Shown piece after piece: positions 7,932 to 64,000 of a stretch of DNA of 64,000 nt; positions within the stretch are counted from its first letter, which is position 1; every line of letters starts with the position of its first letter. Source of the DNA: Sipunculus nudus. Taxonomy: Eukaryota > Annelida > Sipuncula > Golfingiida > Sipunculidae. The notes under the pieces are model-generated. The model worked only from the letters and a program-made list of their open reading frames with translations, ran no database searches and was not told the DNA's origin. Both the position numbers and the translations under genes were made by a program. Where the stretch lies: the NCBI GenBank assembly GCA_026874595.1, contig CM049309.1:97332723-97396722 (forward strand). The letters run 5' to 3'.

Positions 7932-7988
7932 ATTATCTTAAAGTTTCACTGTTGGGTTTAATGATGTCCAAAAATCATCTTTATATTC

Positions 7989-38220: not shown

Positions 38221-38860
38221 CACCTATAAAGGGCTTAAGTGTTAGCGTATGTGTTATATCTAACAGCAGCCTTGAATTTTTTCAAAATGCCCCTCCAACA
38301 ATTTCGTAAGTGTTATTCTATAACACTTATGCTAACACTTAAGAACACCACTTAATGTAAAGCGTTCTTAAGTGTTATTTTTAACACATAACACAACACT
38401 TAAACTTAAGTCTCCAGAAACAACACTATGTTTAAGTGTAAAAAGCAACACTTAACAATTGTTTTTTCACATATTCCATCTTTCAAGACTTGGTGCTGTT
38501 GAGTGTCGGCATGTGTTGTCGTTAAGAGTCGTTATTAAGTCTTATTAAGTGTTATCAAGATAAAGCTTAGCCGTATACTTGGATTCATGCAAGTTTCTTA
38601 AGCATTACTAAGTGTTATTGAGTATTGAGTGGTTATATGCTAAGTTTCATTAAGTGTTAGGGACTTTGGATTTTTTTTTATATATTCCATCCTTCCATAT
38701 ATCCTAAGTGTTATTAAGTCTTCTCGAGAATTAAGTGGTTATATGGTAGGTTTTATTAAGTGTTAGGGACTTTGAAATTTTTGTCGTCCTGTTTTAAGTC
38801 TTGTCCTTAAGTGTAACCTTTAAGTGGTTTATTGAGCTTGTTTCTTAAATATGCCATTTT
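38221..38860. repeat. Dense TTAAGTGTTA-word tract, third
   Basis: Same word family as at 34207 and 36841, mixed with ttatatgctaagtttcattaag repeats. Confidence 0.65.
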
Positions 38861-40243: not shown

Positions 40244-40402
40244 TTAGGGTTAGGGTTAGGGTTAGGGTTAGGGTTAGGGTTAGGTTAGGGTTAGGGTTAG
40301 GGTTAGGGTTAGGGTTAGGGTTAGGGTTAGGGTTAGGGTTAGGTTAGGGTTAGGGTTAGGGTTAGGGTTAGGGTTAGGGTTAGGGTTAGGGTTAGGTTAG
40401 GG

Positions 40403-40443
<41 letters not shown>

Positions 40444-40476
40444 GGTTAGGGTTAGGGTTAGGGTTAGGGCTAGGGT
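40244..40476 (+). repeat. Interstitial telomere-like array (TTAGGG)n, second
   Basis: About 230 bp of TTAGGG units with a few variants, in the same orientation as the array at 23144-23611. Confidence 0.95.
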
Positions 40477-41914: not shown

Positions 41915-44895
41915 CATGTGGAAATGCTGAAAAATGATAGTACTTTTGGTCCTGCTCCAGACAATGAGGGATTTTCTCAGTATTTGAACATTGTCGCTTA
42001 TGCCGATAAGTCATCCGGCTTTTTTGAAAATGTCGGTAGTGTCCATAAGTTAATTTAGTCTGAAATGTGAACCGTTAAACATATAAGTGGAGATGCTGAA
42101 AAATATAGTACTTTTAGTCCTAGTGCAGGCAATAAGGGATTTTCTCAGTATTTGAACATTGTCGGTGTTGCTGATAAGTTATTCGGCTATTTTGAAAATG
42201 TCGGTAGTGTCGATAAGTTAATTTAGTCTGAATTGTGAACCGTTAAATATATAAATGGAAATGCTGAAAAATTATAGTACTTTTGGTCCTACTCCAGGCA
42301 ATAAGGGATTTTCTCAGTATTTGAACATTGTCGCTTTTGCCGATAAGTCATCGGGCTATTTGGAAAATGTCGGTAGTGTCGATAAGTTATTTTAGTCTGA
42401 AATGTGATCCATTAAATACACATATTGAAATGCTAAAAATTAAAGTACTTTTGGTCCTACTCCAGGCAATAAAAGTCATCGGGCTATTTTGAAAATGTCG
42501 GTAGTGTCGATAAGTAATTTTAGTCTGAAATATGAACCGTTAAATATATAGGGAGATGCTGAAAAATTTTAGTACTTTTGGTCCTAGTGCAGGCAATAAG
42601 GGATTTTCTCAGTATTTGAACATTGTCGGTGTTGCCGATAAGTTATTCAGATTTTTTGAAAATGTCAGTAGTGTCCATAACTTAATTTAGTCTCAATAGT
42701 AAACTGTTAAACATATAAGTGGAAATGCTGAAAACTTATGGTACTTTCGGACCTACTCCAGGCAATAAGGGATTTTCTCAGTATTTGAACATTTTCGCTT
42801 ATGCCGATAAGTCATCCGGCATTTTTGAAAATGTTGGTAGTGTCGATAAGTAATTTTAGTCTGAAATGTGAACCGTTAAATATATGTGGAAATGATGAAA
42901 AATTTTAGTACTTTTAGTCCTACTCCAGGCAATAAGGGATTTTCTCAGTATTTGAACATTGTCGCTTATGCCGATAAGTTATTCAGCTATTTTGAAAATG
43001 TCGGTAGTGTCGATAAGTTAATTTAGTCTGAATTGTGAACCGTTAAATATATAAGTGGAAATGCTGAAAAATTATAGTACTTTTGGTCCTACTCCTGGCA
43101 ATAAGGGATTTTCTCAGTATTTGAACATTGTCGCTTTTGCCGATAAGTCATCGGGCTATTTGGAAAATGTCTGTAGTGTCGATAAGTTATTTTAGTCTGA
43201 AATGTGATCCATTAAATACACATATTGAAATGCTAAAAATTAAAGTACTTTTGGTCCTAGTGCAGGCAATAAGGGATTTTCTCAGTATTTGAACATTGTC
43301 GCTTATGCCGATAAGTCATCCGGCTATTTTGAAAATGTCGGTAGTGACGATAAGTTATTTTAGTCTGAAATGTGAACCGCTAAATATATAAGTGGAAATG
43401 CTGAAAAATTATAGTACTTTTGGTCCTTCTCCAGGGAATAAATAATTAAGGGATTTTCTCAGTATTTGAACATTGTCGGTTGTTCCCGATAAGTTTTTCG
43501 GCTATTTTGAAAATATCAGTAGTTTCGATAATTTTCTTAAGTCTGAAATAAGAACTGATAAATATTAGGCCTTAAGTTGATCAGCTTAAGCTTAAGTTGA
43601 TCAACATAGCTTATGTTGAAGTCTTAAGTCTATCAACTTAAACTTATGTTGTTCAACATAGCTTTTGTTATAATTGGAAATGTTAAAAAATGATAGTAGT
43701 TTTGGTCCTACTCCAGGCAATTAGGGATTTTCTCAGTATTTGAACCTTGTCTCTTATGCCGATAAGTCATCCGGCATTTTTGAAAATGTTGGTAGTGTCG
43801 ATAAGTAATTTTAGTCTGAAATGTGAACCGTTAAATATATGTGGAAATGATGAAAAATTTTAGTACTTTTAGTCCTACTCCAGGCAATAAGGGATTTTCT
43901 CAGTATTTGAACATTGTCGCTTATGCCGATAAGTTATTCAGCTATTTTGAAAATGTCGGTAGTGTCGATAAGTTAATTTAGTCTGAATTGTGAACCGTTA
44001 AATATATAAGTGGAAATGCTGAAAAATTATAGTACTTTTGGTCCTACTCCTGGCAATAAGGGATTTTCTCAGTATTTGAACATTGTCGCTTTTGCCGATA
44101 AGTCATCGGGCTATTTGGAAAATGTCTGTAGTGTCGATAAGTTATTTTAGTCTGAAATGTGATCCATTAAATACACATATTGAAATGCTAAAAATTAAAG
44201 TACTTTTGGTCCTAGTGCAGGCAATAAGGGATTTTCTCAGTATTTGAACATTGTCGCTTATGCCGATAAGTCATCCGGCTATTTTGAAAATGTCGGTAGT
44301 GACGATAAGTTATTTTAGTCTGAAATGTGAACCGCTAAATATATAAGTGGAAATGCTGAAAAATTATAGTACTTTTGGTCCTTCTCCAGGGAATAAATAA
44401 TTAAGGGATTTTCTCAGTATTTGAACATTGTCGGTTGTTCCCGATAAGTTTTTCGGCTATTTTGAAAATATCAGTAGTTTCGATAATTTTCTTAAGTCTG
44501 AAATAAGAACTGATAAATATTAGGCCTTAAGTTGATCAGCTTAAGCTTAAGTTGATCAACATAGCTTATGTTGAAGTCTTAAGTCTATCAACTTAAACTT
44601 ATGTTGTTCAACATAGCTTTTGTTATAATTGGAAATGTTAAAAAATGATAGTAGTTTTGGTCCTACTCCAGGCAATTAGGGATTTTCTCAGTATTTGAAC
44701 CTTGTCTCTTATGCCGATAAGTCATCCGGCTATTTTGAAAATGTCGGTAGTGTCGATAAGTTATTTTATTCTGAAATGTGAACCGTTAAATATATAAGTG
44801 GAAATGCTTAAAAATTATAGTACTTTTGGTCCTAGTCCAGGCACTAAGGGATTTTCTCAGTATTTGAACATTGTCGCTTATGCCGATAAGTTATT
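41915..44895 (+). repeat. Satellite of about 168 bp, roughly 17 units, with a 955-bp higher-order duplication
   Basis: Each unit carries tggaaatgctgaaaaattat, tagtacttttggtcctactc, aagggattttctcagtattt and gaaaatgtcggtagtgtcga. Units start about every 165-175 bp from 41918. A block of about 955 bp (42811-43765) is repeated next to itself (43766-44720), including a CAACTTAAG-word spacer at 43560-43675 and 44515-44630. The two blocks look almost identical, so this duplication is young. Confidence 0.9.
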
Positions 44896-45900: not shown

Positions 45901-46351
45901 TTGTCACAATGACAGTATAGATTGGTGTGTGACCGTGTCAGACTCTTATCCCGAACCGACCACTACACTCCAACCCCTCGCGCTTTTTACATGGTTCTGG
46001 AAAAGTATTTGGTGCAAAAATTACTTAGTTAAAATAAAAGCTAGTAAAATATTGTCACGTGATCGAGATTAAATCTTTTTGATTTTGATTTTTCTATGAC
46101 TCTACAAAATATATCAGCATCTTGTCTTTTACAGTGTATGCTGTGTCAAAATGCAAGAATTTGTGTATAAATACGCACTTTCCATACCGAACAATACTGA
46201 TGTTGATTAACTCATACCAACGCTCATGTACCATATCTTCAATTCGCTATCTGCTTATATTACCATCTAGTTGACGAATGACATTTGTGAAATGACACCC
46301 TTACTTTGCCGTGCATGCCAATGACACTAAGTTCGTCACATTTTATTTAAG

Positions 46352-46413
46352 GCCAGAACCTCATGAAATGGCAGAAAAGGATTCACCAGAGCTGGATGAA
46401 GAGTTTTGGAAAG
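46352..46413 (+). CDS. Cassette gene: probable first coding exon
   Basis: Acceptor tttatttaag, donor AAAG/gtcaga. The ATG at 46368-46370 sits in a fair context (gaaATGG) and opens MAEKDSPELDEEFWK. An in-frame upstream reading into 45299-45376 is possible, so the ATG is a preferred but not certain start. Confidence 0.6.
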
Positions 46414-47834
46414 GTCAGATTCTTTATTGAACTTAATTTTGCGAAAAAGATACCTTTATATTTTATAAAAGTTATCCTGAAAAAAACTTTTTAAGGTATC
46501 ACAATTGAAACTTTATTTAAAAATCTCCAACCCAGCTATTAACAAACGCAATACAAGCAAGTATCTATCCAGCTTTCACATTACTGTTTAAATGTATTGT
46601 GTTTTACATCTGTTGCAGCTTTCAGGCTTGAGATGTTCGGGCAAGAAACAATGCCAGGTACGTTATTCATGCAAGCATCATGTTGATTTATATTAAACCA
46701 ACAACTTTTGTGAGCGAATCATTTTATTAGTACTGTTCATGTGTATAGAACTAACTACGTGGCTTGAGCCTCGTACCAATGAGTCACCCGTGTCATATAT
46801 AGCTTTCTGATGTATAACATAGTGGTATTTTAATTTGTGCTTCACAGGAAGATAGCTCCAAAGTAAATTTAAAGTTTTAATATTGTCATATTTTTCACGT
46901 CGTATTTTTTTTCATAAACTAACGTATTTGAGTAAAGAAAATTTATTCAATACATTTACAGAATTACCTGAAGAATTGGAGACACCTGAGGTAGTCCAGT
47001 TAGGTAGGTATTGCCTAATCATTTTGCAAAGCATACAGAATGAGATATTCTTCAATTTGTCATATTCCTAATCCTTGAGCTCAAATTGTTTAATACCTCA
47101 TAAATAAACACGGTTAAACTTTGTTCATGTCCAAGTCAGCTCTCTAGTTAGGTGAACTTAAAAATTACTCTATCGGATAATCAACCTGTAAGGCCACAGG
47201 TCAGGCCACAGCTCATTTATAACGAGTTTGTTCATTATAACAGCTCAAATATTTTATTTATAAATTCCTCTTAGGTTTTTAATTTGATAAATTGAATACG
47301 ATTAATAAAACTTTAACATTTTTATAATTATATGCATTACAGAGTACGGTACTGATACTGGTTCAAGCGACGACCAAGATGATTCGGGTGTGTAATAATT
47401 TCTTTAATGAAATAATCTTATCTAGTGTGTAATTATTCATTTACAGCAATAATCTTATAACATTTAACAGCAGTCTTATATTCTATTATCAGTTGTGTTT
47501 CGGTCATGATTCCGATACAATGAATGATTTATGCCTTTTGCCCTACGGTTTCTCAGGCCGTCTGTTTATTTCTGAAAAATCATCTTACCGTTCTGAGTTC
47601 AATCTGTGCACAAGATCACTTTTCCGGTGTATTAATATTTCTGTTTTAAATCTGTTCATTCACGTGAAGAAGACAGCCAGTTAAGCGAGGCGTCAGAAGA
47701 CAAAGACAGAAACATGTCCAGTGAGTACTTTTTACTTTGATGGAATAATGTTGATTATTCATTGATTTTTGTCATATGTCGATATAGTACTTTTCCATGA
47801 CGGTCTTTATGTCTATTAAATATATTTCCCCTTT

Positions 47835-47872
<38 letters not shown>

Positions 47873-50800
47873 TCTTTCTTTCATAAAATTCTAAAGTTAA
47901 TTGTTATTAGTTCTTGTAGTAGCGACACGTATTTTTTACCTAGGACCGTTATAACGAATAACATGGACAGATTCTGTGCACCAAAACATTGTGGTCGATA
48001 TGAAAACGAACTCTTTCCCCTATTTCCATTGATGCATGATACCTGTACATCATTACTAACACAGCTGTGAGACAGCATCTCTCCAGGACCGTTTGTTTCT
48101 GTACATATTCTTCTTTACAATAGTTGACGCCATTACACTAGCCTTTCTCTGTTAAACTGTTTGTTGCGCAGCCATACGTTATATAGATTGAATCCGGTTC
48201 AGAACATTGAATGCAACACTTATCCAACTTACACTGTCAAGTAACGTGATGCTTGTGTTTAATTCGACGTTAACAACACCGTCCAGTCCCAATGAAGCTC
48301 GCGAGACGAATATATTAGGGGAAAAAACTCAACTATCAATTTATTTGATAAAATTCATCTTACCGTTCTGAGTTCAATCTGTGCACAAGCCCACTGTACC
48401 ATGTATTAATCTTTCTGTTTTAAATCTGTTCATTCAGGTGAAGAAGACAGCAAGTTAAGCGCTGCGTCAGAAGACAAAGACAGAAGCATGTCCAGTGAGT
48501 GATTTTCACTTTAATGGAATAATGCTGATTATTCATTTATTTTTTCATATGTCGCCCTAGTACTTGCCTTAACGGTTTTATGTCCATTCTATGGATTTCC
48601 CCTTTCTTTCTTTCTCTCTCTCTCTTTCTTTCTCTCGCTCTATCATAAATTCTTAAGTTAATTGTTATCAGTTCTTGTAGAAAGGACACGTATTTTTGAC
48701 CCCGGACTCTGTCATCCGTTATAACGAATAACATGGAAAGATTGTGTGCACTCAAACATTGTGGTCGATATGAAAACGAACTCTTTCCCCTCTATCCATT
48801 GATACATAATGGCTGTACAACATTACTAACACAGCTGTGAGAGAGCATCTCTCCGGAACCGTTTGTTTCTGTACATATTCTTCTTTACAATAGTTGAAGC
48901 CACAACACTAGCTTTTCTCTGTTAAACTGTTTGTTGCGTAGCCATGCTTTAGATTGAATCCGGTTCAGAACAACGTACACTGTCAAGTAACGTGATGCGC
49001 GTGTTTAATTCAACGTTAACAACAGCGTCCAGTCCCAGTGAAGATCGCGAGACGAATATATATGAGAAAAAAAAAACAATTTCAATTTGTTTTAGAAAAA
49101 TCATCTTACCGTTCGGAGTTCAATCTGTGCACAAGATCACTTTTCATATGTATTGACTGTTCTGTTTTCAATCTGTTCTTTCAGGTGAAGAAGACAGCCA
49201 GTTAAGCGAGGCGTCAGACGACAAAGACAGAAACATGTCCAGTGAGTGATTTTTACTTTAATGGAATAATGCTGATTATTCATTGATTTTTGTCATATGT
49301 CGGTTAAGTACTTTTCCATCAGGGTCTTTATGTCTATTCTATGAATTTCCGCTTTTCTCGCTCTCATTTTTTTCACTCGCTCTCATGAATTTTAACGCCA
49401 AAGACAGAAACATTTCCAGTGAGTGTTAAAGTAATTTTTATTTATTGGAATAATGTTGATTATTCATTGCTTTTTGGCATATGTCGATAAAGTACTTTCC
49501 ATAACTGTCTTTATGTCTATTTTATGTATTTCTCTTTTCTCTCTCTCTCTTTCTTTCTTTCTCTCTCTATCTTATAAATTCTAAAGTTAATTGTTACCCG
49601 TTCTTATGGCAGCGACACGTACTTTTGACCTAGGACTCTGTCATCCGTTACAACGGATAACATGGAAAGATTGTGTGCCCCAAAACATTGTGATTGATCT
49701 GAAAGCAAACTCTTTCCCCAATTTCCATTGATACATTATGGCTGTACATCATTAATAACACAGCCGTGAGACAGCATCTCTTCAGGACCGTGTTTGTCTG
49801 TACATATTCTTTTTTACCACAGGTGAAGCTATAACACTAGCCTTTCATGTTAAACTGTTCGTTGCGCAGCCATGCGTTACATTGAATCCGGTTCAGAACA
49901 TTGAATGCAACACTTATCCAACTTACACTCTCAAGTGACGTGATGCTTGTGTTTAATTCAACGTTACCAACAGCGTCCAGTCTCAGTGAAGCTCGCGAAA
50001 CGAATATATTAGGAAAAAAACTCAACTATCAATTTATTTTAGAAAATTCATCTTACCGTTCTGAGTTCAATCTGTGCACAAGCCCACTGTACGATGTATT
50101 AATCTTTCTGTTCATTCAGGTGAAGAAGACAGCCAGTTAAGCGAGGCGTCCGACGACAAAGACATAAACATGTCCAGTGAGTAATTTTAAATTAAATGCA
50201 ATAAAGTTGATTATTCATTGATTTTTGTCATATGTCGCCATAGTACTTTTCCATGGCGGTCTGTATGTCCACTCTACATATTTCCTCTTTTCTCTCTCTC
50301 TTTGAATATATACATCTCTCTCATAAATCCCAAAGTTAATTGTTACCAGTTCTTTTAGCAGCGACACGTATTTTTTACCTGGGACTCTGTCATCCGTTAT
50401 AACGAATAACATGGAAAGATTGTGTGCACCAAAACATTGTGGTCGATATGAAAACGAACTCTTACACCTATTTCCTTTATGTATATAATGGCTGTACATC
50501 ATTACTAACACAGCGATGAGAGAGCATCTCTCCAGGTCCGTTTGTTTCTGTACATATTTTTCTTTACAGCAGTTGAGGCCATAACACTAGCCTTTCTCTG
50601 TTAAACTGTTTGCTGCGTAGCCATGCTTTAGATTGAATCCGGTTCAGAACATTGAATGCAACACTTATCCAACTTACACTGTCAAGTAACGTGATGCTTG
50701 TGTTTAATTCAACGTTAACAACAGCGTCCAGTTCCAGTGAAGCTCGCGAGACGAATATATAAGAGAACAAAAAAATCTCAATATATTTTAGAAAAATTAT

Positions 50801-53751
50801 CTTACCGTTCTGAGTTCAATCTGTGCACAAGATCACTTTTCCTATGTATTAATTGTTCTGTTTTAAATCTGTTCATTTAGGTGAAGAAGACGGCCAGTTA
50901 AGCGCGGCGTCAGACGACAAAGACCTAAACATTGAATGCAGTGAGTATTTTTATTTTATTGGAATAATGTTTATTATTCATTGATTTTTGTCATATGTCG
51001 GTTTAGTACTTTTCATCACGGTCTTTATATCTATTAAATGTATTTCGCCTTTTCTCTCTCTCTCTCTCTTTCTTTCTTTCTCCCTCTCTCTCTCATAAAA
51101 TTCTACAGTTAATTGTTATCAGTTCTTTTAGCAGCGACACGTATTTTTGACCTAGGACCCTGTCGTCCGTTACAACGGATAACATGGAAAGATTGTGTGC
51201 ACCAGAACATTGTGGTCGATATGAAAAACGAACTCTTACCCCTATTTCCTTTGTGTACATAATGGCTGTACATCATTACTAACACAGCGATGAGACAGCA
51301 TCTCTCCAGGACCGTGTTTGTCTGTACATATTCGTTTTAATCGCAAGTGAAGCTATACCACTAGCCTTTCTCGGTGAAACTGTTCTTTGCGCAGCCATGC
51401 GTTAGATTGAATCCGGTTCACAACATTGAATGCAACCCTTATCCAACTTACACTCTCAAGTAACGTGATGCTTGTGTTTAATTCAACGTTAACATCAGCT
51501 TCCAGTCACAGTGAAGCTCGCGAGACTAACATATAAGGTGAAAACAATTTCAATTTCTTTTAGAAAGGTTATCTTCCCGTTCTGAGTTCAATCTGGGCCC
51601 AAGATCACTTTTGCGATGTATTAATCCTTCTGATTTTAATCTATTTATTAATCCTTCTTATTTAAATCTATTCATTCAGGTGAAGAAGACAGCCAGTTAA
51701 GCGAGGCGTCAGACGACAAAGACATGGTCATGTCCAGTGAGTAATTTTTATTTTAATGGAATAATGTTTAATATTCATTGATTTTTGGCATATGTCCGTT
51801 AAGTACTTTTCCATCACGGTCTTTATATCTATTAAATGTATTTCGCCTTTTCTCTCTCTCTCTTTTTCTTTCTTTCTCCCTCTCTCTCTCATAAAATTCT
51901 ACAGTTAATTGTTATCAGTTCTTTTAGCAGCGACACGTATTTTTTACCTAGGACCCTGTCGTCCGTTATAACGGATAACATGGAAAGATTGTGTGCACCA
52001 GAACATTGTGGTCGATATGAAAAACGAACTCTTACCCCTATTTCCTTTGTGTACATAATGGCTGTACATCATTACTAACACAGCGATGAGACAGCATCTC
52101 TCCAGGACCGTGTTTGTCTGTACATATTCTTTTTATCCGCAGGTGAAGCTATACCACTAGCCTTTCTCTGTTAAACTGTTCTTTGCGCAGCCATGCGTTA
52201 GATTGAATCCGGTTCAGAACATTGAATGCAACACTTATCCAACTTACACTCTCAAGTAACGTGATGCTTGTGTTTAATTCAACGTTAACATCAGCTTCCA
52301 GTCACAGTGAAGCTGGCGAGACTAATATATAAGGTATAAAAACAATTTCAATTTATTTTAGAAAATTTATTGTACCGTTCTGAGTTCAATCTGTGCACAA
52401 GATCACTTTTTCGATGTATTAATCCTTCTGATTTAAATCTATTCATTCAGGTGAAGAAGACAGCCAGTTAAGCGAGGCGTCAGACGACACAGACAAAAAC
52501 ATGTCCAGTGAGTAATTTTTATTTTAATGGAATAATGTTGATTAATCATTGATTTTTGTCATATGTCAGTATAGTACTTTTCCATCACGGTCTTTATGTC
52601 TACTCCATGTATTTCCCCTTTTTTCTCTCTATCTCTCTCTATATATATCTCTCTCATTAATCTCTCTCTAAAGTTAATTGTTATCAGTTCTTTTAGCAGC
52701 GACACTTGTTTTTGACCTAGGACTCTGTCGCCCGTTATAACGAATAACATGGAAAGATTGTGTGCCCAAAAACATTGTGGTCAATATGAAAAACGAACTC
52801 TTTCCCTTATTTCCGTTGTAGACATAATGTCTGTACATCATTACTAACACAGCGATGAGGGAGCATCTCTCCAGGACCGTGTGTCCTTGTAGCAGCAATA
52901 AGTATTGTTTACCTAGGACTCTCTCATCCGTTATAACGAATAACATGGAAAGTTCGTGTGCCCCAAAACATTGTGATCAATATGAAAACGAACTCTTTCA
53001 CTTATTTCCATTGTGGACGTAATGGCTGTGCATCATTACTAACCTTTCTCGGTTCATCTTTGTATTTAAGTCAACGTTAACAACAGCGTCCATAACCATG
53101 GACACTGTTAGACATCTTAATTGGGATTTCAGACAAGTATCAGTGACCGTGCAGACTGATAGACATGTTAACTGGGCTTTTAGAGAAGTATCAGTGACCG
53201 TGCAGACTGTTAGACCTGTTGACATGACTTTTAGACAAGTATCAGGGATCGTGCATACTGTTTGACATGTGAACAGTGCTTTACCACAAGTGATTCTAAT
53301 TTCAACTTAAGACAGTGTTAAGGTCCTCAACTCAACATGTTATGGTCATAAACGTACACTCGACGGGTTATGCTCCTAACACTGACAAGTGACTGTAATT
53401 TCAACTGCAGACAGTGTTAAGGTCCTCAACTCAACATGTTATGGTCCTAAAGGTACAGTGTTATGGTCGTAGACGTACACTATGTCCATAACCTTACATT
53501 GTTAGGTTCCTAAACATACAGTGATATGGTCCTAAATTTACGTTATGTTCCTAAACTTGAAGTGCTATGGTCTTAAACTTAGCGTTATGGTCCTACACTT
53601 ATGTTAGGATCCTAAAATTACATTGATATGGTGCTAAACTAACAGTGTTATGATCCTAAACTTACGATGGTATGGTCCTAAACTTATGGTTATGGTGCTA
53701 AACATATAGAATTATGCTCCCAAACTTAAGCTTAGAATACAGTTGACATTG

Positions 53752-53822
<71 letters not shown>

Positions 53823-55394
53823 TGTTTACAGGTATTTATGAATGAATATCGGTATGTATGAATGACTGTTAGGCATGTTAACAGGGCTTTTAGACAAGTA
53901 TCAGTAACCGTACAGACTGTTAGACATGTCAACTGGGCTTTTAGACAAGTATCAGTGACCGTGGAGACTGTAAGACATGTTAACAGGGCTTTTAGACAAG
54001 TATCAGTGACCGTGCAGACTGTTAGACATGTTAACAGGGCTTTTAGACAAGTATCAGTGACCGTGCAGACTGTTAGACATGTTAAGTGGGCTTTTAGACA
54101 AGCTTCAGTGATCGTGCAGACTGTAAGACATGTTAACAGTGCTTTTAGACAAGTATCAGTGACGGTGCAGACTGTTAGACATGTTAACAGGGCTTTTAGA
54201 CAACTATCATTGACATTGCATAGTGTTAGGCATGTTAACTGAAATATTTGATCATCAGACTCTTCTATATCTTTCATATAAACCATAACTGTGCACAGAA
54301 TTAGTTAATAAAACATATAATTAATGTTTAATTATCAGAAGCAGGGCTATTTCCTCTTAGCTTTTCAAATGCTAATATATTTAACAAACGAAATAGGTAC
54401 ATTTTAATAAAATGTTATTTTATATATATATAAAAATCATGTATATTTATATTTGACAAAAATTTCCAAAAAATTCAGCTGAGCCACGAGACCCATGGGT
54501 CTCTTGTTTCAATCGTGAATCAAGATTTTTTCCCAGATAAGTATTGTTATAGCACATTTAAAAAAAAAATTATATTTCAGAAACCATCAGAACATCTGCG
54601 TAAATGATGTGATGTTGCCTGACCAGATTAACTAGAAATGTTGATGCAATTTAAAATATTTTAATCAACTTAAATATTCAAATATATACGACTGAAACTG
54701 TTTAGTGAAATTTGTATATTAAAAATATACTTATTAAAAAAAATTAATACAAAACTTTGTTCATTATTTTCTTGCCTCAGTGATTGGGTTTGTTGTTCTC
54801 TCATTTTTCATATTTTCAATATTTATTTTTATGAAAAAGAATATTAATAAAACTATATTTTACTTCTCATATATCAGTTACATGATGACGTTTAAGTTCC
54901 AATTTTTTTCCAACTTCAGCTGAGCGACGTGACCCATGTGTCCCGTGTGAACCCATGTAACCCATGTAAACTTTTTTTAATTAGACTGTGTTTTGTTGCA
55001 GGCACAACCATCAGATTACCCTCGGGCCAGATCTTCATACTAAAAGTGCCTATTGACGAGAGGGAGCAGGACTCTAGTTTGCGTAGGTTGTTTTTCTTCG
55101 CAATGTACAAGATAAGCCAGTCTAGAGACAAAATGTTGTCACATGTGTATAAATGAGTGACACGTCAGTTTTAATGTTTCGTGAAATCCGGTGTCAGGGT
55201 TAGAGCAGCATATATTGGAACACCAAAGGCTGTTTATATTCTTTTAACTCCCTCCTTTTACGCGGTGGTCTATCGTCCTGGAAAAGTTTCAATTGTCGAA
55301 TCTGCGTTTGTATTTTGTTAAGACGTGATGAATTGTAACCTCATCTTGGCATTGTCACACTACTGGGTGTTATTTGCACAGACACCAACAGTGA

Positions 55395-55456
<62 letters not shown>

Positions 55457-58400
55457 GCATACTGTGACATATTCTCTGAGTTATCTGGCTCCGAATTACC
55501 ACCCCCCCCCCCCCCACAGCATAATACTAAATTTGATACAAAACCGTATGTATCTTATATATATAAAATCTTATATGCCTTGTCTGTACATATCCTTCTT
55601 TTACAACAGGCCAAGGGGAAGCGGTGGTCCAAAAGGAGGAAACGCAATTGGAGCCTTGCAATAAAGGTATTGATGCTGTTGCATAACTTAACTTGTTGTG
55701 TAATGTGACTGTTTCTTCACATACATATGAGAAAATTAGAATTTAATGCTATTATACAGTGAACATTTCATTAATATTTGCTCAGATTGTCATACAATGT
55801 GCTTCACAGGTTTATCCTGGACGTCTTTATATATTAAAAACGTTACAATTTGATAAAAGTTGTGCTGACACACCTTATACTCGATAGCATTCCTTGGCCT
55901 ATTCCCTTTGGCTCTGTGTACAAAATGGCTGTATATCATTTCACCCACAGTGGTCAGAGACCATCTCTCCACAACTGCGTTTGCTTTTTCCCATCAGCCT
56001 CAATCGGAAGCAACTCTTCTGTGCAACAGCTATCTATACAGTCGAAAACCTTGTCTGTACGTGTCCTTCTTTTACAGCAGGCCTAGGCGAAGCGGCGGTG
56101 CAAGAGAAGGAAACGCAATTGGACCCGAGCAAAGAAGGTAGTGATGTTGTTGCATATTTTCATGCCCATATTTCCCCGATTAATCATTTATTCTTAGTTT
56201 CCATGCCAAACTTTAAAAAATGAAAGAACAGGATCGTGTAAAACTATTTAATGCAATGAATGGGATAACCAAAGAATCCTTGTTACTCCATAACTAACAC
56301 TCAGACTCTCTGTGACTTATCTGTATTATTCGTATTAAATTAACTTGTTGTGTAATGTGACTGCTTCTTCACATACATATAAGAAAATTAGAATTTAATG
56401 CAATTGTACAGTGAACATTTCATTAATATTTGCCCAGTTTGTCATACAATGTGCTTCACATGTTTATCCTGGACGCCTTTATAAATTAAAAACGTTACAA
56501 TTTTATAAAAGTTGTGCTGACACACCTTATACTCGGTAGCATTCCTTGGCCTATTCCCTTTGGCACTGTGTACAAAATGGCTGTTAATCATTTCACAAAC
56601 AGTGGTCAGAGACCATCTCTCCACAACTGCGTTTGCTTTTCCCATCAGCCTCAATGGGAAGCAACTCTTCTGTGCAACAGCTATCTATACAGTCGAAAAT
56701 CTTGTCAGTACATGTTCTTCTTTTACAGCAGGCCTATGCGAAGCGACGGTGCAAGAGGAGGAAACGCAATTGGAGCCTTGCAAAGAAGGTAGTGATGTTG
56801 TTGCATATTTTCATGCCCATATTTCCCAGATTAGTCATTTATTCTTAGTTTCCATGCAAAACTTTAAAAATATGAAAGAACAGGGTCGTGTAAAACTATT
56901 TAATGCAACGGATGGGATAACCAAAGAATCTATGTTACTCCACAAATAACATACGCACTCTCTGTGACTTATCTGAATTTTCGTATTAACTTAATTCGTT
57001 GTGTTATGTGACTGTTTCTTTACATACATATAAGAAAATTAGAATTTAATGCAATTATACAGTGAACATTTCATTAATATTTGCCCAGATTGTCATACAA
57101 TGTGCTTCACAGGTTTATCCTGGACGTCTTTATATATTAAAAACGTTACAATTTGATAAAAGTGGTGCTGAAACACCTTATACTCGATAGCATTTCTTGG
57201 CCTATTCCCTTTGGCTCTATGTACAAAATGGCTGTATATCATTTCACCCACAGTGGTCAGAGACCATCTCTCCACAACTGCGTTTGCTTTTTCCCATCAG
57301 CCTCAATCGGAAGCAACTCTTCTGTGCAACAGCTATCTATACAGTCGAAAACCTTGTCTGTACGTGTCCTTCTTTTACAGCAGGCCTAGGCGAAGCGGCG
57401 GTGCAAGAGAAGGAAACGCAATTGGACCCGAGCAAAGAAGGTAGTGATGTTGTTGCATATTTTCATGCCCATATTTCCCCGATTAATCATTTATTCTTAG
57501 TTTCCATGCCAAACTTTAAAAAATGAAAGAACAGGATCGTGTAAAACTATTTAATGCAATGAATGGGATAACCAAAGAATCCTTGTTACTCCATAACTAA
57601 CACTCAGACTCTCTGTGACTTATCTGTATTATTCGTATTAAATTAACTTGTTGTGTAATGTGACTGCTTCTTCACATACATATAAGAAAATTAGAATTTA
57701 ATGCAATTGTACAGTGAACATTTCATTAATATTTGCCCAGTTTGTCATACAATGTGCTTCACATGTTTATCCTGGACGCCTTTATAAATTAAAAACGTTA
57801 CAATTTTATAAAAGTTGTGCTGACACACCTTATACTCGGTAGCATTCCTTGGCCTATTCCCTTTGGCACTGTGTACAAAATGGCTGTTAATCATTTCACA
57901 AACAGTGGTCAGAGACCATCTCTCCACAACTGCGTTTGCTTTTCCCATCAGCCTCAATGGGAAGCAACTCTTCTGTGCAACAGCTATCTACACAGTCGAA
58001 ATCCTTGTCAGTACATGTTCTTCTTTTACAGCAGGCCTATGCGAAGCGACGGTGCAAGAGGAGGAAACGCAATTGGAGCCGTGCAAAGAAGGTAGTGATG
58101 TTGTTGCATATTTTCATGCCCATATTTCCCAGATTAGTCATTTATTCTTAGTTTCCATGCAAAACTTTAAAAATATGAAAGAACAGGGTCGTGTAAAACT
58201 ATTTAATGCAACGGATGGGATAACCAAAGAATCTATGTTACTCCACAAATAACATACGCACTCTCTGTGACTTATCTGAATTTTCGTATTAACTTAATTC
58301 GTTGTGTTATGTGACTGTTTCTTTACATACATATAAGAAAATTAGAATTTAATGCAATTATACAGTGAACATTTCATTAATATTTGCCCAGATTGTCATA

Positions 58401-61400
58401 CAATGTGCTTCACAGGTTTATCCTGGACGTCTTTATATATTAAAAACGTTACAATTTGATAAAAGTGGTGCTGAAACACCTGATACTCGATAGCATTTCT
58501 TGGCCTATTCCCTTTGGCTCTGTGTACAAAATGGCTGTATATCATTTCACCCACAGTGGTCAGAGACCATCTCTCCACAACTGCGTTTGCTTTTTCCCAT
58601 CAGCCTCAATCGGAAGCAACTCTTCTGTGCAACAGCTATCTATACAGTCGAAAACCTTGTCTGTACGTGTCCTTCTTTTACAGCAGGCCTAGGCGAAGCG
58701 GCGGTGCAAGAGGAGGAAACGCAATTGGACCCGAGCAAAGAAGGTAGTGATGTTGTTGCATATTTTCATGCCCATATTTCCCCGATTAATCATTTATTCT
58801 TAGTTTCCATGCCAAACTTTAAAAAATGAAAGAACAGGGTCGTGTAAAACTATTTAATGCAATGAATGGGAGAACCAAAGAATCCTTGTTACTCCATAAC
58901 TAACACTCAGACTCTCTGTGACTTATCTGTATTTTTCGTATTAAATTAACTTGTTGTGTAATGTGACTGCTTCTTCACATACATATAAGAAAATTAGAAT
59001 TTAATGCAATTGTACAGTGAACATTTCATTAATATTTGCCCAGTTTGTCATACAATGTGCTTCACATGTTTATCCTGGACGCCTTTATAAATTAAAAACG
59101 TTACAATTTTATAAAAGTTGTGCTGACACACCTTATACTCGGTAGCATTCCTTGGCCTATTCCCTTTGGCACTGTGTACAAAATGGCTGTTAATCATTTC
59201 ACAAACAGTGGTCAGAGACCATCTCTCCACAACTGCGTTTGCTTTTTCCCATCAGCCTCAATGGGAAGCAACTCTTCTGTGCAACAGCTATCTATACAGT
59301 CGAAAACCTTGTCAGTACATGTTCTTCTTTTACAGCAGGCCTATGCGAAGCGACGGTGCAAGAGGAGGAAACGCAATTGGAGCCTTGCAAAGAAGGTAGT
59401 GATGTTGTTGCATATTTTCATGCCCATATTTCCCAGATTAGTCATTTATTCTTAGTTTCCATGCAAAACTTTAAAAATATGAAAGAACAGGGTCGTGTAA
59501 AACTATTTAATGCAACGGATGGGATAACCAAAGAATCTATGTTACTCCACAAATAACATACGCACTCTCTGTGACTTATCTGAATTTTCGTATTAACTTA
59601 ATTCGTTGTGTTATGTGACTGTTTCTTTACATACATATAAGAAAATTAGAATTTAATGCAATTATACAGTGAACATTTCATTAATATTTGCCCAGATTGT
59701 CATACAATGTGCTTCACAGGTTTATCCTGGACGTCTTTATATATTAAAAACGTTACAATTTGATCAAAGTGGTGCTGAAACACCTTATACTCGATAGCAT
59801 TCCTTGGCCATTTCCCTTTGGCTCTATGTACAAAATGGCTGTATATCATTTCACCCACAGTGGTCAGAGACCATCTCTCCACAACTGCGTTTGCTTTTTC
59901 CCATCAGCCTCAATGGGAAGCAACTCTTCTGTGCAACAGCTATCTGTACAGTCGAAAACCTTGTCTGTACGTGTCCTTCTTTTACAGCAGGCCTAGGCGA
60001 AGCGGCGGTGCAAGAGGAGGAAACGCAATTGGACCCGAGCAAAGAAGGTAGTGATGTTGTTGCATATTTTCATGCCCATATTTCCCCGATTAGTCATTTA
60101 TTCTTAGTTTCCATGCCAAACTTTAAAAAATGAAAGAACAGGGTCGTGTAAAACTATTTAATGCAATGAATGGGATAACCAAAGAATCCTTGTTACTCCA
60201 TAACTAACACTCAGACTCTCTGTGACTTATCTGTATTTTTCGTATTAAATTAACTTGTTGTGTAATGTGACTGTTTCTTCACATACATATAAGAAAATTA
60301 GAATTTAATGCAATTGTACAGTGAACATTTCATTAATATTTGCCCAGATTGTCATACAATGTGCTTCACATGTTTATCCTGGACGCCTTTATAAATTAAA
60401 AACGTTATAATTTTATAAAAGTTGTGCTGACACACCTTATTCTCGATAGCATTCCTTGGCCTATTCCCTTTGGCACTGTGTACAAAATGTCTGTTAATCA
60501 TTTCACAAACAGTGGTCAGAGACCATCTCTCCACAACTGCGTTTGCTTTTTCCCATCAGCCTCAATCGGAAGCAACTCTTCTGTGCAACAGCTATCTATA
60601 CAGTCGAAAACCTTGTCAGTACATGTTCTTCTTTTACAGCAGGCCTATGCGAAGCGACGGTGCAAGAGGAGGAAACGCAATTGGAGCCGTGCAAAGAAGG
60701 TAGTGATGTTGTTGCATATTTTCATGCCCATATTTCCCAGATTAGTCATTTATTCTTAGTTTCCATGCAAAACTTTAAAAATATGAAAGAACAGGGTCGT
60801 GTAAAACTATTTAATGCAACGGATGGGATAACCAAAGAATCTATGTTACTCCACAAATAACATACGCACTCTCTGTGACTTATCTGAATTTTCGTATTAA
60901 CTTAATTCGTTGTGTTATGTGACTGTTTCTTTACATACATATAAGAAAATTAGAATTTAATGCAATTATGCAGTGAACATTTCATTAATATTTGCCCAGA
61001 TTGTCATACAATGTGCTTCACAGGTTTATCCTGGACGTCTTTATATATTAAAAACGTTACAATTTGATCAAAGTGGTGCTGAAACACCTGATACTCGATA
61101 GCATTCCTTGGCCAATTCCCTTTGGCACTGTGTACAAAATGGCTGTATATCATTTCACCCACAGTGGTCAGAGACCATCTCTCCACAACTGCGTTTGCCT
61201 TTTCCCATCAGCCTAAATGGGAAGCAACTCTTCTGTGCAGCCGCTATCTCTACAGTAGCAAAACTTGTCTGTACATATCATTCTTTTACAGCAGACCAAG
61301 GGGAAGCGGCGGTCCAAGAGGAGGAAACGCAATTGGAGCCGTGCCAAGAAGGTAGGGATGCTGTTGCATATTCTCATTCCCATATTTCCCAGATTAGTCA

Positions 61401-62526
61401 TTTATTCTTAGTTTCCATGCAAAACTTTAAAAATATGAAAGAACAGGGTCGTGTAAAACTATTTAAGTCATTGAATGGGATAACCAAAGAATCCTTGTTA
61501 CTCCATAACTAACAGTCGGACTCTCTGTGACTTATCTTTTTATTTCGTATTAACTTAATCTGTTATGTCATGTGACTGTTTCATTATATACATATTAGAA
61601 AATTCACACTTATGCAAGTGTACAGGGAACTTTTCATTAATATTCAACCAGATTGTCATACAATGTGCTCCACATATTTATCCTTGATGTCTTTATATAT
61701 TAGAAAAATTTACAATTTAATAAAAGTTGTGCAGACACACCTTATACTCCATAGCATTCCTTGTACTATTCCTGTCACCCGCAATGCTGTTTCATATTCT
61801 CAGGCATGCATTTCCCAGTTTAAAGCTTCAATAAATAACACTCGGGTATCTGTAACATTTATTTATTTATTCGGTTTTACTGTATCTGTAGTGTAATGTT
61901 ACTGATTCTTTACGCACACATAATATAATTAAAATTCATGCAAGGGTGCATTCAACTTTTCAGAAAAACACCAGATTTTCCCTCAATGTGCTCTGTTTTT
62001 TCCTGGATGTCTTTATATATTAGAAGAACAATAAAACAGGTGAAACATGAACACCTTGATTATTAACAAAGGTGAAAATATGACTTCCTTTATCATCAAC
62101 ACAGATGAAAACATTATCTCCTTAATTATGATAAACACAGGTGAAAACGTGACTTATTTGATCATAAACATAAGTTACAACTTAACACTCCTTGATAATA
62201 AACAGTAGAAAACAATCTCCTTTACAATAAATAGAGGTGAAAATATAAACGAGCTTGATATTAAACACAGGTGAAAAAAACGCTCTTTGATGATAACAAA
62301 TGAAGGAGTAAACATAACCCCTTTGATCATAAACATAGGCGACAGCTTACAGGGTTATGGTTCAAAGATAAAGTGTTATAGTCCTAAACTTACATTGTTA
62401 TGGTCCTAAACTAACAGTCTCATGGTTCTAAACCTAAGCTTAGAATACTGTTGACAAATGTATGTAAATATGTGTGTATATTTAGGTATATATCTAAAAA
62501 TATATGTATTTATATATGGTATATGA

Positions 62527-62582
<56 letters not shown>

Positions 62583-62622
62583 TGGCTGTGTAATGTCACT
62601 GTTATGGTCCTAAACGTACGTG

Positions 62623-62676
<54 letters not shown>

Positions 62677-64000
62677 GTGTGTATACAACATAACATGGGT
62701 ATGTGTATGTATGTATGTATGTACGCATGTATGCATATATGTATGTATGTATCACTGTAGGACGATGCGGACCCTGGCTGTTTAACTTCACTCTTATGGT
62801 TCTAAACTTAGTGTTATGTTGCTAAAGTTACGTTACGGTCCTAAACCTTGAGTGTTATGGTCTAAAACCTACGATATTATGGTCGCAAATTTACGTTGTC
62901 ATGGTCCAAATCTTACCTTGTTTTGGTCCTAAACTTCAGCAGAATCTGGCTTTAACACAGCTCTTATGTGTGAAGCGACTCTTGTTTGGGGCCGCTATCT
63001 ATACAATGCACAGGCTTGTCTGTAGATATCCTTCTCCACAACTTTGTTAAGCAAGTTTGGTGTCGTAGTCCATGTTTCACTTATTATTTTTGTTGGCAGG
63101 TGACAGGGGGCGCCGACGCCACAGGATTGGGGCTCGCAGAGGTTCAGGGGCCATGTGCCCTATATGCAAACAGCGTAAGAGCAACCTGAAAAGGCACATG
63201 AGATCGGTACACCCAGAAGTGAAGGTAGAAACAACACAACTGAGTAGCTGCAGTGTCGCTGGCTGCCCCTTCGTCGGCCAGCGACTAGACTCCCACCTCG
63301 TCACCGTGCACGGATTTAAGCGGGGCACAGATCTGCACAAACGCTATTTTAAGGTGCCAGCCTCACCCAACCTGTTACTGGAAGAGTTCCAGACGCACCT
63401 TACATCGTTCAGCGGCGGGGCCCGCTCTGACAAGTCCGCATTACAACACTCCTCCCAAGTTGAGAAGATGTTGAAGGATGTCAAAGATGTGCATCACTTT
63501 ACAACATCCGGGCTCCAGGACTCCATGCAGTCTGGACACATTAAACATATCATAGAAAATTCTCAGCCCGGGACCTTCAGGAGCTATATCCATTCCTTGC
63601 AGCTTTACACGAATTTCCTGACATTCCGTGTGCAAGAACAGGGTCCATTGTCCAACGTTACATCGGCATCTTTGAATGTTGTCCAAAATCTTCTAAAGAA
63701 CTGGCTCAAGGCAACCTCGAAAAACTACTCTCAGAGGCAAGCTGAACTAAGGATTGAGGAACAGACTAAAATACCGACGGCCAAAGATATCGCCAACTAC
63801 TTGACCAGCCCATACGCTAAACAGATGGAAGTGTATTTTAAAACTAAATCTGGACCCACTATCAAAATGCGAAACCATCTGCTTCTGCAGTTTCTGATCC
63901 ACAACGCCACAAGGCCTAGCCCCATCATTAACATGACGGTTAAAGATTACCAAAATGCCAGTGTCCACGGCAACCGGAAAGTTATTCTGGTACGTAACAC
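46352..64000 (+). CDS. Cassette gene: acidic micro-exon repeats leading to C2H2 fingers and a tyrosine-recombinase-like domain (partial, 3' end beyond window)
   Basis: Inferred gene model. Exons: 46352-46413 (ATG at 46368), 46619-46657, 46962-47003, 47343-47387, D cassettes (47664 to 52507), 55002-55082, E cassettes (55610 to 61351), and 63100 onward. All internal junctions are phase 1 with GT-AG sites, so every small exon is symmetric and can be skipped or added in frame. Full inclusion would give about 400 acidic residues (MAEKDSPELDEEFWK, then Glu/Asp/Ser-rich blocks), followed by a basic patch, two zinc fingers and an integrase-like fold. A DNA-binding protein with a variable acidic arm is the simplest reading. 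The combination resembles tyrosine-recombinase-derived proteins of metazoans, but no orthologue could be checked. No transcript evidence is available, so which cassettes are used is unknown. Confidence 0.6.
46619..46657 (+). CDS. Cassette gene: 39-bp micro-exon
   Basis: Acceptor catctgttgcag, donor CCAG/gtacgt, phase 1/1. Encodes AFRLEMFGQETMP. Confidence 0.65.
46962..47003 (+). CDS. Cassette gene: 42-bp micro-exon
   Basis: Acceptor atacatttacag, donor TTAG/gtaggt, phase 1/1. Encodes ELPEELETPEVVQL. Confidence 0.65.
47343..47387 (+). CDS. Cassette gene: 45-bp micro-exon
   Basis: Acceptor atatgcattacag, donor TCGG/gtgtgt, phase 1/1. Encodes EYGTDTGSSDDQDDS, so acidic/serine character begins here and continues in the D cassettes. 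Confidence 0.65.
47664..47720 (+). pseudogene. D cassette 1, acceptor lost
   Basis: 57 bp encoding GEEDSQLSEASEDKDRNMS with a good donor (TCCA/gtgagt). The acceptor reads ttcattcac where every other copy has ttcattcag or ttcatttag, so this exon is probably skipped. Confidence 0.6.
47837..47868. repeat. (TC)n microsatellite in D intron
   Basis: Uninterrupted tctctctctc. Equivalent but shorter or impure tracts occur in each D unit (for example 48613, 49530, 51056, 51852). Confidence 0.9.
48438..48494 (+). CDS. D cassette 2
   Basis: ttcattcag acceptor, TCCA/gtgagt donor, phase 1/1. Encodes GEEDSKLSAASEDKDRSMS. Confidence 0.7.
49185..49241 (+). CDS. D cassette 3
   Basis: ttctttcag acceptor, TCCA/gtgagt donor. 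Encodes GEEDSQLSEASDDKDRNMS. Confidence 0.7.
49394..49418 (+). pseudogene. D cassette remnant (3' half only)
   Basis: gccaaagacagaaacatttcca followed by gtgagt matches the end of a D exon. The acceptor and first half are missing. It begins a unit that continues normally to cassette 4, 0.75 kb further on, so a deletion removed most of one unit. Confidence 0.7.
50120..50176 (+). CDS. D cassette 4
   Basis: ttcattcag acceptor, TCCA/gtgagt donor. Encodes GEEDSQLSEASDDKDINMS. Confidence 0.7.
50881..50940 (+). CDS. D cassette 5, 60 bp
   Basis: ttcatttag acceptor, TGCA/gtgagt donor. Encodes GEEDGQLSAASDDKDLNIEC, one codon longer than its siblings but still phase 1/1. Confidence 0.7.
51680..51736 (+). 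CDS. D cassette 6
   Basis: ttcattcag acceptor, TCCA/gtgagt donor. Encodes GEEDSQLSEASDDKDMVMS. The upstream intron has a small local duplication (attaatccttct twice, 51620-51660). Confidence 0.7.
52451..52507 (+). CDS. D cassette 7
   Basis: ttcattcag acceptor, TCCA/gtgagt donor. Encodes GEEDSQLSEASDDTDKNMS. Confidence 0.7.
53095..53280 (+). repeat. 51-bp minisatellite, short block
   Basis: About three to four degenerate units of gactgttagacatgttaact...tttagacaagtatcagtgac. The same family as at 53858. Confidence 0.75.
53330..53735 (+). repeat. TATGGTCCTAAACTTAC word array between the D and E arrays
   Basis: The word and variants (ttatggtcctaaac, gatatggtcctaaattta) recur about every 25-35 bp. 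It stands in an intron between D cassette 7 and the 55002 exon. Confidence 0.75.
53755..53816. repeat. (AT)n microsatellite
   Basis: About 60 bp of uninterrupted AT. Confidence 0.95.
53858..54240 (+). repeat. 51-bp minisatellite, about 7.5 units
   Basis: Units of ctgttagacatgttaacagg...gcttttagacaagtatcagtgaccgtgcaga. The period is a multiple of 3 and both strands stay open (126 and 184 codons), but the peptides are only repeat artefacts. Confidence 0.9.
54241..55001. other. Intron with two HINE-like 3' ends
   Basis: AT-rich intronic DNA. cagctgagccacgagaccca at about 54477 with the perfect palindrome GAGACCCATGGGTCTC (54491-54506), and cagctgagcgacgtgaccca at about 54917, are 3' ends of the HINE-like family seen at 10914. 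Ends with acceptor tgttttgttgcag. Confidence 0.5.
55002..55082 (+). CDS. Cassette gene: single 81-bp exon between the arrays
   Basis: Acceptor gttttgttgcag, donor TTGC/gtaggt, phase 1/1. Encodes TTIRLPSGQIFILKVPIDER then EQDSSL, 27 codons. It is the only non-repeated exon between the D and E arrays and is the least acidic of the small exons. The antisense ORF over it (54916-55131) is a shadow. Confidence 0.65.
55083..55609. other. Intron with (AT)n and poly-C tracts
   Basis: Contains (TA)n at about 55400-55455 and a 15-base poly-C run at about 55502-55516. ORFs across it are low-complexity. Confidence 0.6.
55610..55666 (+). CDS. E cassette 1 (outer type)
   Basis: ttttacaacag acceptor, AAAG/gtattg donor, phase 1/1. 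Encodes GQGEAVVQKEETQLEPCNK. Like cassette 10 it has QGEA, unlike the eight inner copies (LGEA or LCEA). Confidence 0.65.
56081..56137 (+). CDS. E cassette 2 (type A)
   Basis: tacagcag acceptor (a NAGNAG pair, cag/cag, which could add one codon), GAAG/gtagtg donor. Encodes GLGEAAVQEKETQLDPSKE. Confidence 0.7.
56732..56788 (+). CDS. E cassette 3 (type B)
   Basis: Same splice sites. Encodes GLCEATVQEEETQLEPCKE, with two cysteines absent from type A. Confidence 0.7.
57384..57440 (+). CDS. E cassette 4 (type A)
   Basis: Encodes GLGEAAVQEKETQLDPSKE, identical to cassette 2. Confidence 0.7.
58035..58091 (+). CDS. E cassette 5 (type B)
   Basis: Encodes GLCEATVQEEETQLEPCKE. It differs from cassette 3 by a silent change (CCG for CCT). 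Confidence 0.7.
58687..58743 (+). CDS. E cassette 6 (type A)
   Basis: Encodes GLGEAAVQEEETQLDPSKE (Glu for Lys relative to cassettes 2 and 4). Confidence 0.7.
59339..59395 (+). CDS. E cassette 7 (type B)
   Basis: Encodes GLCEATVQEEETQLEPCKE. Confidence 0.7.
59991..60047 (+). CDS. E cassette 8 (type A)
   Basis: Encodes GLGEAAVQEEETQLDPSKE, same protein as cassette 6. Confidence 0.7.
60643..60699 (+). CDS. E cassette 9 (type B)
   Basis: Encodes GLCEATVQEEETQLEPCKE with the CCG codon of cassette 5. Confidence 0.7.
61295..61351 (+). CDS. E cassette 10 (outer type)
   Basis: ttttacagcag acceptor, GAAG/gtaggg donor. The exon starts ACCAAGGGG, so the first codon is x-A-C (Asp after a G), giving DQGEAAVQEEETQLEPCQE. 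The unit body is more diverged than the inner copies. Confidence 0.7.
61561..62040 (+). repeat. Decayed E unit(s) without an exon
   Basis: cagattgtcatacaatgtgc, cacaccttatactc and gtctttatatattag at 61640-61760, then a second, more eroded copy to 62040, follow the E array with no recognisable cassette. Confidence 0.65.
62041..62345 (+). repeat. Degenerate repeat of about 30-45 bp
   Basis: ttgat(c/t)ataaacacaggtgaaaac words recur six to eight times with irregular spacing. Confidence 0.6.
62346..62960 (+). repeat. TATGGTCCTAAACTTAC word array after the E array, with (AT)n tracts
   Basis: The word recurs at about 62375-62440, once at 62600-62620, and at 62790-62935. (AT)n lies at about 62528-62574 and 62628-62670, and a gtatgtatgtatg run at about 62700-62755. 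Confidence 0.75.
62961..63099 (+). other. End of the last intron, carrying E-unit-like sequence
   Basis: gctatctatacaatgcacagg and cttgtctgtagatatccttc at about 62994-63033 match the segment just upstream of every E exon, but no E exon follows. The intron then ends ttttgttggcag before the large exon. Confidence 0.55.
63100..64000 (+). CDS. Cassette gene: large exon with C2H2 fingers and tyrosine-recombinase-like domain (partial)
   Basis: Acceptor ttgttggcag, phase 1. The frame is open to the window edge (300 residues). Residues 2-15 are basic (DRGRRRHRIGARRG, a likely nuclear-localisation or DNA-contact patch). Two zinc fingers follow: C20-C23-H33-H38 (CPIC...H...H) and C51-C56-H66-H71. An alpha-helical stretch comes next (FRSYIHSLQLYTNFLTFR, like the core-binding SAM-like region of tyrosine recombinases). 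Then NATRPSPIINMTVKDYQNA has Arg272 in the position of the first catalytic Arg (usual form RPG.I..LT). The later catalytic residues (H-x-x-R, Tyr) would lie beyond the window. A donor-like CTG/gtacgt at 63989/63990 could end the exon; otherwise it reads on. Codon use is clearly GC-richer than the flanks. Known relatives are Crypton-derived and other recombinase-like metazoan genes. Confidence 0.75.

Follow-up and report, generated by a model that had tools for sequence, protein, structure and literature searches.

The micro-exons in a 64,000-nucleotide stretch of the Sipunculus nudus genome (contig C4:97332723-97396722 of assembly GCA_026874595.1, which comprises 1.43 Gb in 153 contigs; hereafter the window) open a predicted gene whose product resembles a zinc-finger tyrosine recombinase. 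The predicted gene spans ~26.6 kb, with the window copy running from 46368 to 73008 in numbering continued beyond the window end. We favor, with a probability of about 0.6, the reading that this gene, which combines C2H2 fingers with a tyrosine recombinase domain, rides a 73-95 kb subtelomeric module with TTAGGG borders that has spread through telomere-repeat exchange.

A recombinase-like gene in a module bounded by telomere repeats

An array of (TTAGGG)n occupies 40244-40469 (+) of the window and lies directly before the module, of which 40470-64000 (+) is the window portion; the whole module measures 73.0 kb (C4:97373192-97446196), is delimited by a start and an end junction, and contains 168-bp satellite arrays at 41919-44520. 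The first 30 bases of the module have 17 exact matches in the genome, and TTAGGG stands immediately before every one of them (17/17). Fifteen of these matches lie within ~370 kb of a contig end, the distance to the end being established for those 15 alone, and the remaining two are at C9:79.7 Mb and C12:78.5 Mb. The module end has five genome matches (with at most one mismatch), each downstream of a copy of the gene and each with TTAGGG as the next sequence. All seven array junctions that were read have the module start distally; proximally, four have the module’s own end and three have other sequence. Modules are therefore joined head to tail via telomere repeats. Five complete modules could be delimited by coordinates, with lengths of 73.0 kb (C4), 94.9 kb (C8), 85.7 and 79.8 kb (C13) and 81.1 kb (C15). 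The sequence of the C4 module was read throughout except for the 5 kb right after the window, and as far as it was read the recombinase gene is the sole intact gene recognized in it.

A genome search with the large exon of the gene returned ten full-length matches at ~100% and one partial match (C3). A pattern for the middle exons of the E array, described below, gave 82 exact matches, all at the same 11 loci, and none in the reversed control. These loci are distributed over eight contigs (C3, C4 with three, C6, C8, C12, C13 with two, C15 and C17), which rules out a single-copy gene. A contig end lies within ~325 kb at 11/11 loci, and at ten of them the gene is oriented toward that end. Elsewhere in the genome the large exon has more distant relatives, many of them inside contigs and several with stops.

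Near-identical copies differ in cassette number

Seven gene copies were read, the window copy and six others, and the middle E exons alone were counted at the four further loci. Across 37 copy-by-region comparisons out of a possible 42 (five pairs were not located; the E region was left out and gaps were not counted), the six other copies show 0-4 mismatches to the window copy per 396-4721 bp (≤0.27%). The large exon is identical across 888 compared bases in all seven copies, as are exons 1-4. With gaps counted, as in BLAST over whole stretches, the longest matches have an identity of 98.6-99.8%. The total number of E exons in the seven copies is 10, 8, 8, 14, 10, 8 and 10, and that of the D exons 7, 7, 7, 7, 7, 6 and 7; the middle E exons number 10, 8, 4 and 6 at the four other loci and range from 4 to 12 per locus, with an even number at 11/11 loci. 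Repeat-unit maps of the seven copies hold 47 units with 26 distinct sequences, seven of which are shared by more than one locus; the maps mostly align (that of C6 least), and their differences are whole two-exon units. Since the bases are near-identical and the E numbers differ, array number changes faster than the bases do, and in frame. The sequence-only reading had proposed that cassette number can change without loss of frame, which agrees with these in-frame count differences between near-identical paralogous loci. The E array is thus a coding-exon variable number tandem repeat (VNTR), in which in-frame exon units vary in number between paralogous loci.

Organization of the predicted gene and its protein

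The large exon is preceded in the window by 21 micro-exons, each 39-60 bp long and all on the + strand; the count of at least 22 tiny exons given by the sequence-only reading is reached only when a D remnant is included. Exon 1, taken from its ATG (MAEKDSPELDEEFWK), occupies 46368-46413 (46 bp) and is identical in 7/7 copies; this is a putative start, and the true 5’ end may differ. It is followed by exon 2 (46619-46657, 39 bp), exon 3 (46962-47003, 42 bp) and exon 4 (47343-47387, 45 bp). The D array consists of D1 (47664-47720), D2 (48438-48494, 57 bp), D3 (49185-49241, 57 bp), a remnant that retains the 3’ end only (~49397-49418), D4 (50120-50176, missing from the C8 copy), D5 (50881-50940; 60 bp, with the donor shifted three bases onward), D6 (51680-51736, 57 bp) and D7 (52451-52507, 57 bp). 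The E array opens with E1 (55610-55666) and closes with E10 (61295-61351), each of a distinct type; between them, within 56081-60699, lie the eight middle exons E2-E9 of 57 bp each, which start at 56081, 56732, 57384, 58035, 58687, 59339, 59991 and 60643, belong to two alternating types and recur as two per ~1.3 kb. The large exon (T, 63100-63989) encodes two C2H2-like fingers and the first part of a tyrosine recombinase domain, and ends at a GTACGT donor.

The proposed symmetry of the micro-exons holds from exon 2 onward, each being in phase 1 on both sides with a length divisible by three, and nearly all have the GT-AG sites that had been described, with a GT donor in all and an AG acceptor in 19 of the 20 that follow exon 1. 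The array counts of seven D exons plus a remnant and ten E exons also stand, although the start of the D unit requires correction: where D follows another D its first residue is S, not G. The acceptor of D1 has lost its AG, reading CAC in place of CAG in 7/7 gene copies read, and this exon is probably skipped in splicing. The E units, E1 excepted, carry nested acceptors (CAGCAG) three bases apart. A scan of 46300-63100 for acidic phase-1 micro-exons with splice-like ends found 27 candidates on the + strand, nested ones counted, and zero on the other strand, and this absence from the reverse strand rules out a chance origin of the micro-exons. The coding frame is open in 7/7 D exons and 10/10 E exons, and both alternative frames of D are closed in 7/7. 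Variable columns are fewer in the D exons (17/57) than in flanking intron sequence (95/171 and 110/208; p = 0.0008 and 0.003).

The gene continues beyond the window, and a model of the C8 copy comprises 30 exons and 1028 amino acids, with AG and GT at every intron. In this model the acidic exons 1-4, D and E are followed by the large exon, two catalytic exons, exon G, seven F exons, exon H and the last exon. Exons 1-4, D and E each carry a net charge of -1 to -7. The F exons form a third cassette array, seven 69-bp phase-0 basic exons in C8 (of the TTTTVYKPKRKRQRTPSPAAEKK type) with charges of +4 to +9; this array was read in part in most of the seven copies. The two C2H2-like fingers in the large exon were recognized by eye, and the Pfam finger matches fall below the cut-off. 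When T, both catalytic exons and G of C8 are joined, they match Phage_integrase (PF00589) with an E-value of 1.4e-7 and 31.9 bits against a cut-off of 27.1. Pfam did not detect a recombinase in the T exon by itself, and a phmmer search against the Protein Data Bank gave nothing better than an E-value above 1. Catalytic residues were assigned by eye from known motifs: the Arg, Lys, second Arg, His and Tyr of the recombinase appear in place, and Ser occupies the box II His position in the subtelomeric gene as well as in both diverged paralogs described below. The suggestion that the cassettes join a zinc-finger and recombinase exon is thus matched by an in-frame link to the exon at 63100 within one open predicted model, and the recombinase-like character of that exon becomes significant in Pfam on joining it to the next two. 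The sequence-only reading is thus supported in part; beyond its reach, being outside the window or visible only in the whole genome, were the F array, the exons with the catalytic part, the presence of 11 subtelomeric copies and the telomere-bounded module.

Diverged paralogs and exon-confined divergence

Two diverged paralogs were read in part, one at C13:179526 and one in a contig interior, at 8.6 Mb of C3. The large exon is open in the C13 paralog (59% at the amino-acid level) and contains two one-base shifts in the C3 paralog; the intron positions of the catalytic part are common to both. Between C3 and C8 the catalytic exons have nonsynonymous (dN) and synonymous (dS) divergences of 0.13 and 1.9, and thus a dN/dS of 0.07 (133 codons), while dS with the C13 paralog is beyond saturation. 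Within C13:67993-217335 an inverted module and the start of another module face each other across the 59% paralog, an arrangement that suggests an inversion near this contig end.

In the C3 paralog, five acidic E-like cassettes of 57 bp form a separate array, in which the acceptor is nested as in E and the donor is GTAGTG; neither a D array nor exons 1-4 were recognized in the 14.4 kb upstream of it. Upstream of the C13 paralog are two acidic exons of 87 bp, in phase 1 and matching D on the donor side (238-324 and 437-523 of C13:172000-179525) and three 39-bp phase-1 exons ~1 kb apart (4358, 5348 and 6385 of the same interval). A stricter scan of this upstream region returned zero micro-exons and a looser one four forward candidates versus one reverse, and so the case for micro-exons in C13 rests on the repeats and the match to D, not on the scan. 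As both diverged paralogs have amplified phase-1 micro-exons, cassette amplification appears to be an old habit of the gene family.

Alignment of the C3 paralog (8608600-8625500) with C8 gives identities of 85-89% in introns, as against 68% in the large exon and 77% and 71% in the catalytic exons. Differences are found at 75/138 fourfold sites versus 238/2080 intron sites. CpG decay is ruled out as the cause of the exon excess, given 49/98 fourfold versus 206/1967 intron differences outside CpG context. The change falls at the splice sites, with identical bases at 30/30 positions before the first catalytic exon and 23/30 after it. In 3/3 paralog pairs, identity is lower in the large exon and in the first catalytic exon than in the introns that separate T and the two catalytic exons. 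There are exceptions: the second catalytic exon is near the identity of its introns in the pairs with C13, exon G (46/54) is close to what the introns show, and conservation is poor (57-73%) in the intron that follows the second catalytic exon. Introns could have been homogenized by conversion, conversion templated by complementary DNA could have been limited to exons, or selection could have favored escape from small RNAs that target the mRNA; each of these could produce the pattern. A study of venom genes describes divergence confined to exons, with similar introns and protein change in the exons (PMC2711939), and reverse transcription and recombination are reported as possible for Y’ RNAs of yeast (PMC13177704).

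Other sequences in the module and the window

The minus strand of the module holds stop-broken pieces of a strawberry-notch helicase (PF13871, best E-value 2.5e-20) in two copies, 99.1-106.8 kb from the window start, with kelch pieces alongside. Ten other open reading frames (ORFs) of the module gave nothing above the Pfam cut-off. A 252-aa ORF on the minus strand (7594-8349 of the module stretch L042) has no Pfam match; it brings DIRS-type gag proteins to mind, which we take as an unconfirmed lead only.

To the left of the array, 38200-40243 of the window belongs to another sequence family that occurs at many places with varying distal cut points, one of them at the very end of C6. Among the 40 of 203 candidates that were scored, most matches lie near contig starts or ends, but not all (e.g. 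C5:8.95 Mb). This family may be another telomere-associated element. Overall, the chromosome ends resemble mosaics in which telomere repeats connect the blocks. At 23144-23611, 16.6 kb before the array at 40244, lies a further interstitial TTAGGG array in the same orientation. Elsewhere in the window are a non-LTR (long terminal repeat) retrotransposon at 5472-9181 (-; RVT_1 1.2e-36, endonuclease 1.1e-5), retrotransposon pieces at 19245-21807 (-; RVT_1 2e-9, with a match to an integrase end under the cut-off) and a 232-aa open frame at 1173-1871 (+) with no Pfam match.

Comparison with known systems

Schistosome micro-exon genes have many tiny symmetric exons and are described as secreted; the gene reported here likewise has many tiny symmetric exons, whereas its product is recombinase-like and its arrays repeat one same cassette. 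The kringle IV-2 unit of LPA contains two exons. In LPA the copy number of a genomic repeat that contains coding exons is variable (PMC11462820), while the present system differs in its 57-bp micro-exons, its three cassette arrays and its eleven loci. Saccharomyces Y’ elements lie at chromosome ends, occur in tandem with interstitial telomere repeats and have a conserved main ORF (PMC13177704). The module is similarly repeated at ends, with tandem copies separated by telomere repeats; however, it measures 73-95 kb as opposed to ~5-7 kb, TTAGGG precedes 17/17 of its exact starts as compared with about half of Y’, and its intact gene is recombinase-like, where Y’ encodes a helicase. The only helicase sequences in the module as far as it was read are the stop-broken strawberry-notch pieces.

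TATE elements of Leishmania encode a tyrosine recombinase and are reported to form tandem clusters at a fixed hexamer site, GGG^TTA (PMC6681497). The module shares the tandem clustering at GGG^TTA, but has a 30-exon gene and a length of 73-95 kb, and is known from sequence alone. TATE has a reverse transcriptase, and none was found in the 18 module ORFs given to Pfam, which are not every ORF of the module. The Terminons of bdelloid rotifers, giant elements associated with telomeres that carry accessory genes and have telomere repeats between their copies, likewise encode a reverse transcriptase (PMC6431247). Cryptons and the genes derived from them (WOC/ZMYM, KCTD1, KIAA1958) are animal tyrosine recombinases, some with added DNA-binding domains (PMC3212892); the gene described here resembles them as an animal tyrosine recombinase gene with finger-like domains, and differs by its cassette arrays and subtelomeric module. 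The Crypton tetrad R-H-R-Y is incomplete here, with R, R and Y present and H replaced by S, as judged by eye. DUF3435, the domain of Starship captains, is absent among Pfam matches at E-values up to 1. No animal subtelomeric recombinase module was found in the open-access literature searched, which is not proof of absence.

Origin and spread of the module

If spread proceeds through telomere-repeat exchange, modules would be added to and swapped between chromosome ends by recombination within the TTAGGG arrays, in the manner of yeast Y’. Pairs of symmetric exons would be gained or lost by unequal exchange within the E array, so that acidic arms of differing length could be encoded with the frame kept. 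The predicted protein would be nuclear and would bind DNA via its fingers and recombinase core, and, to judge from their charge, the flexible acidic (D, E) and basic (F) arms may tune binding or partners.

Several observations weigh against this reading. The module end is missing at 6/11 gene copies; for the C3 copy and two of the C4 copies the contig end is too close to hold it, but the C6, C12 and C17 copies have room for it and still lack it. The copy at C13:101540 is oriented away from its contig end. The fixed junctions were possibly inherited by descent, and are silent on how spread happens. The C8 copy has an 11-bp duplication where the second catalytic exon starts, because of which its model uses a downstream acceptor; the C6, C15 and C17 copies are without the duplication, and the C8 copy may be impaired. 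The C6 copy has a stop within one F exon. Within the arrays the ratio of nonsynonymous to synonymous polymorphism (pN/pS) is ~1 (D 1.15, E 0.91), and protein-level constraint on the cassettes is thus not seen; such a ratio would suit arms that act through composition and length, or that have no role. As to whether the micro-exons are more than chance, this ratio and the E exons are adverse or neutral: the alternative E frames are open in 9/10 and 6/10 exons, and the E exons are no less variable than their downstream intron (15/57 versus 12/60 columns; mean distance 0.092 versus 0.064).

This pN/pS would be expected of a passenger gene, no longer expressed or selected and copied since it sits in a subtelomeric duplicon, as would the possible lesions in two of the seven copies read (C8 and C6), the helicase and kelch remnants that share the module, and the two one-base shifts in the C3 paralog. 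We consider this unlikely in view of the 30 open exons with splice sites in place, the low dN/dS of the catalytic exons between the C3 paralog and C8, and the micro-exon arrays kept in both diverged paralogs; exons 1-4 and T are also identical in 7/7 copies, though only ~1-2 changes would be expected at such divergence. That copy number and end placement are artefacts of assembly, with end contigs collapsed, duplicated or misplaced, is highly improbable: the copies are nearly identical and the two contig ends inspected closely (C4 right, C15 left) are without a terminal telomere array, but E number and array map differ among copies, proximal flanks differ where read, and the 11 loci are spread over eight contigs and several ends.

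Alternatively, the module might be a mobile element of giant size that encodes a tyrosine recombinase aimed at the telomere hexamer, TATE-like but DNA-based and far larger. The near-identity of the copies, which points to recent spread to many ends, would fit such an element, as would the recombinase gene being the only intact one seen in the C4 module, the catalytic residues that appear in place, and borders at GGG/module and module/TTAGGG in the register reported for TATE, GGG^TTA (PMC6681497). Homologous exchange through TTAGGG yields identical borders, however, common descent accounts equally well for the fixed register, and Ser replaces the box II His in each of the three lineages read; this explanation is distinctly unlikely. 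Its extension, in which the recombinase recognizes telomere repeats and moves the 73-95 kb module while the cassettes and the exon-confined divergence mark a conflict with small-RNA silencing of its mRNA, is very doubtful.

The module seems to be the equivalent, in an animal, of yeast Y’ elements, with borders exactly at telomere repeats, and its gene belongs to the class of enzyme found within telomere repeats in Leishmania. This opens a test in an animal of whether chromosome-end elements carry their own means of exchange. The coding-exon VNTR occurs at many loci simultaneously, which allows array change to be compared within a single genome. The diverged relatives are unusual in that most recombinase exons change more than introns do, even at silent sites.

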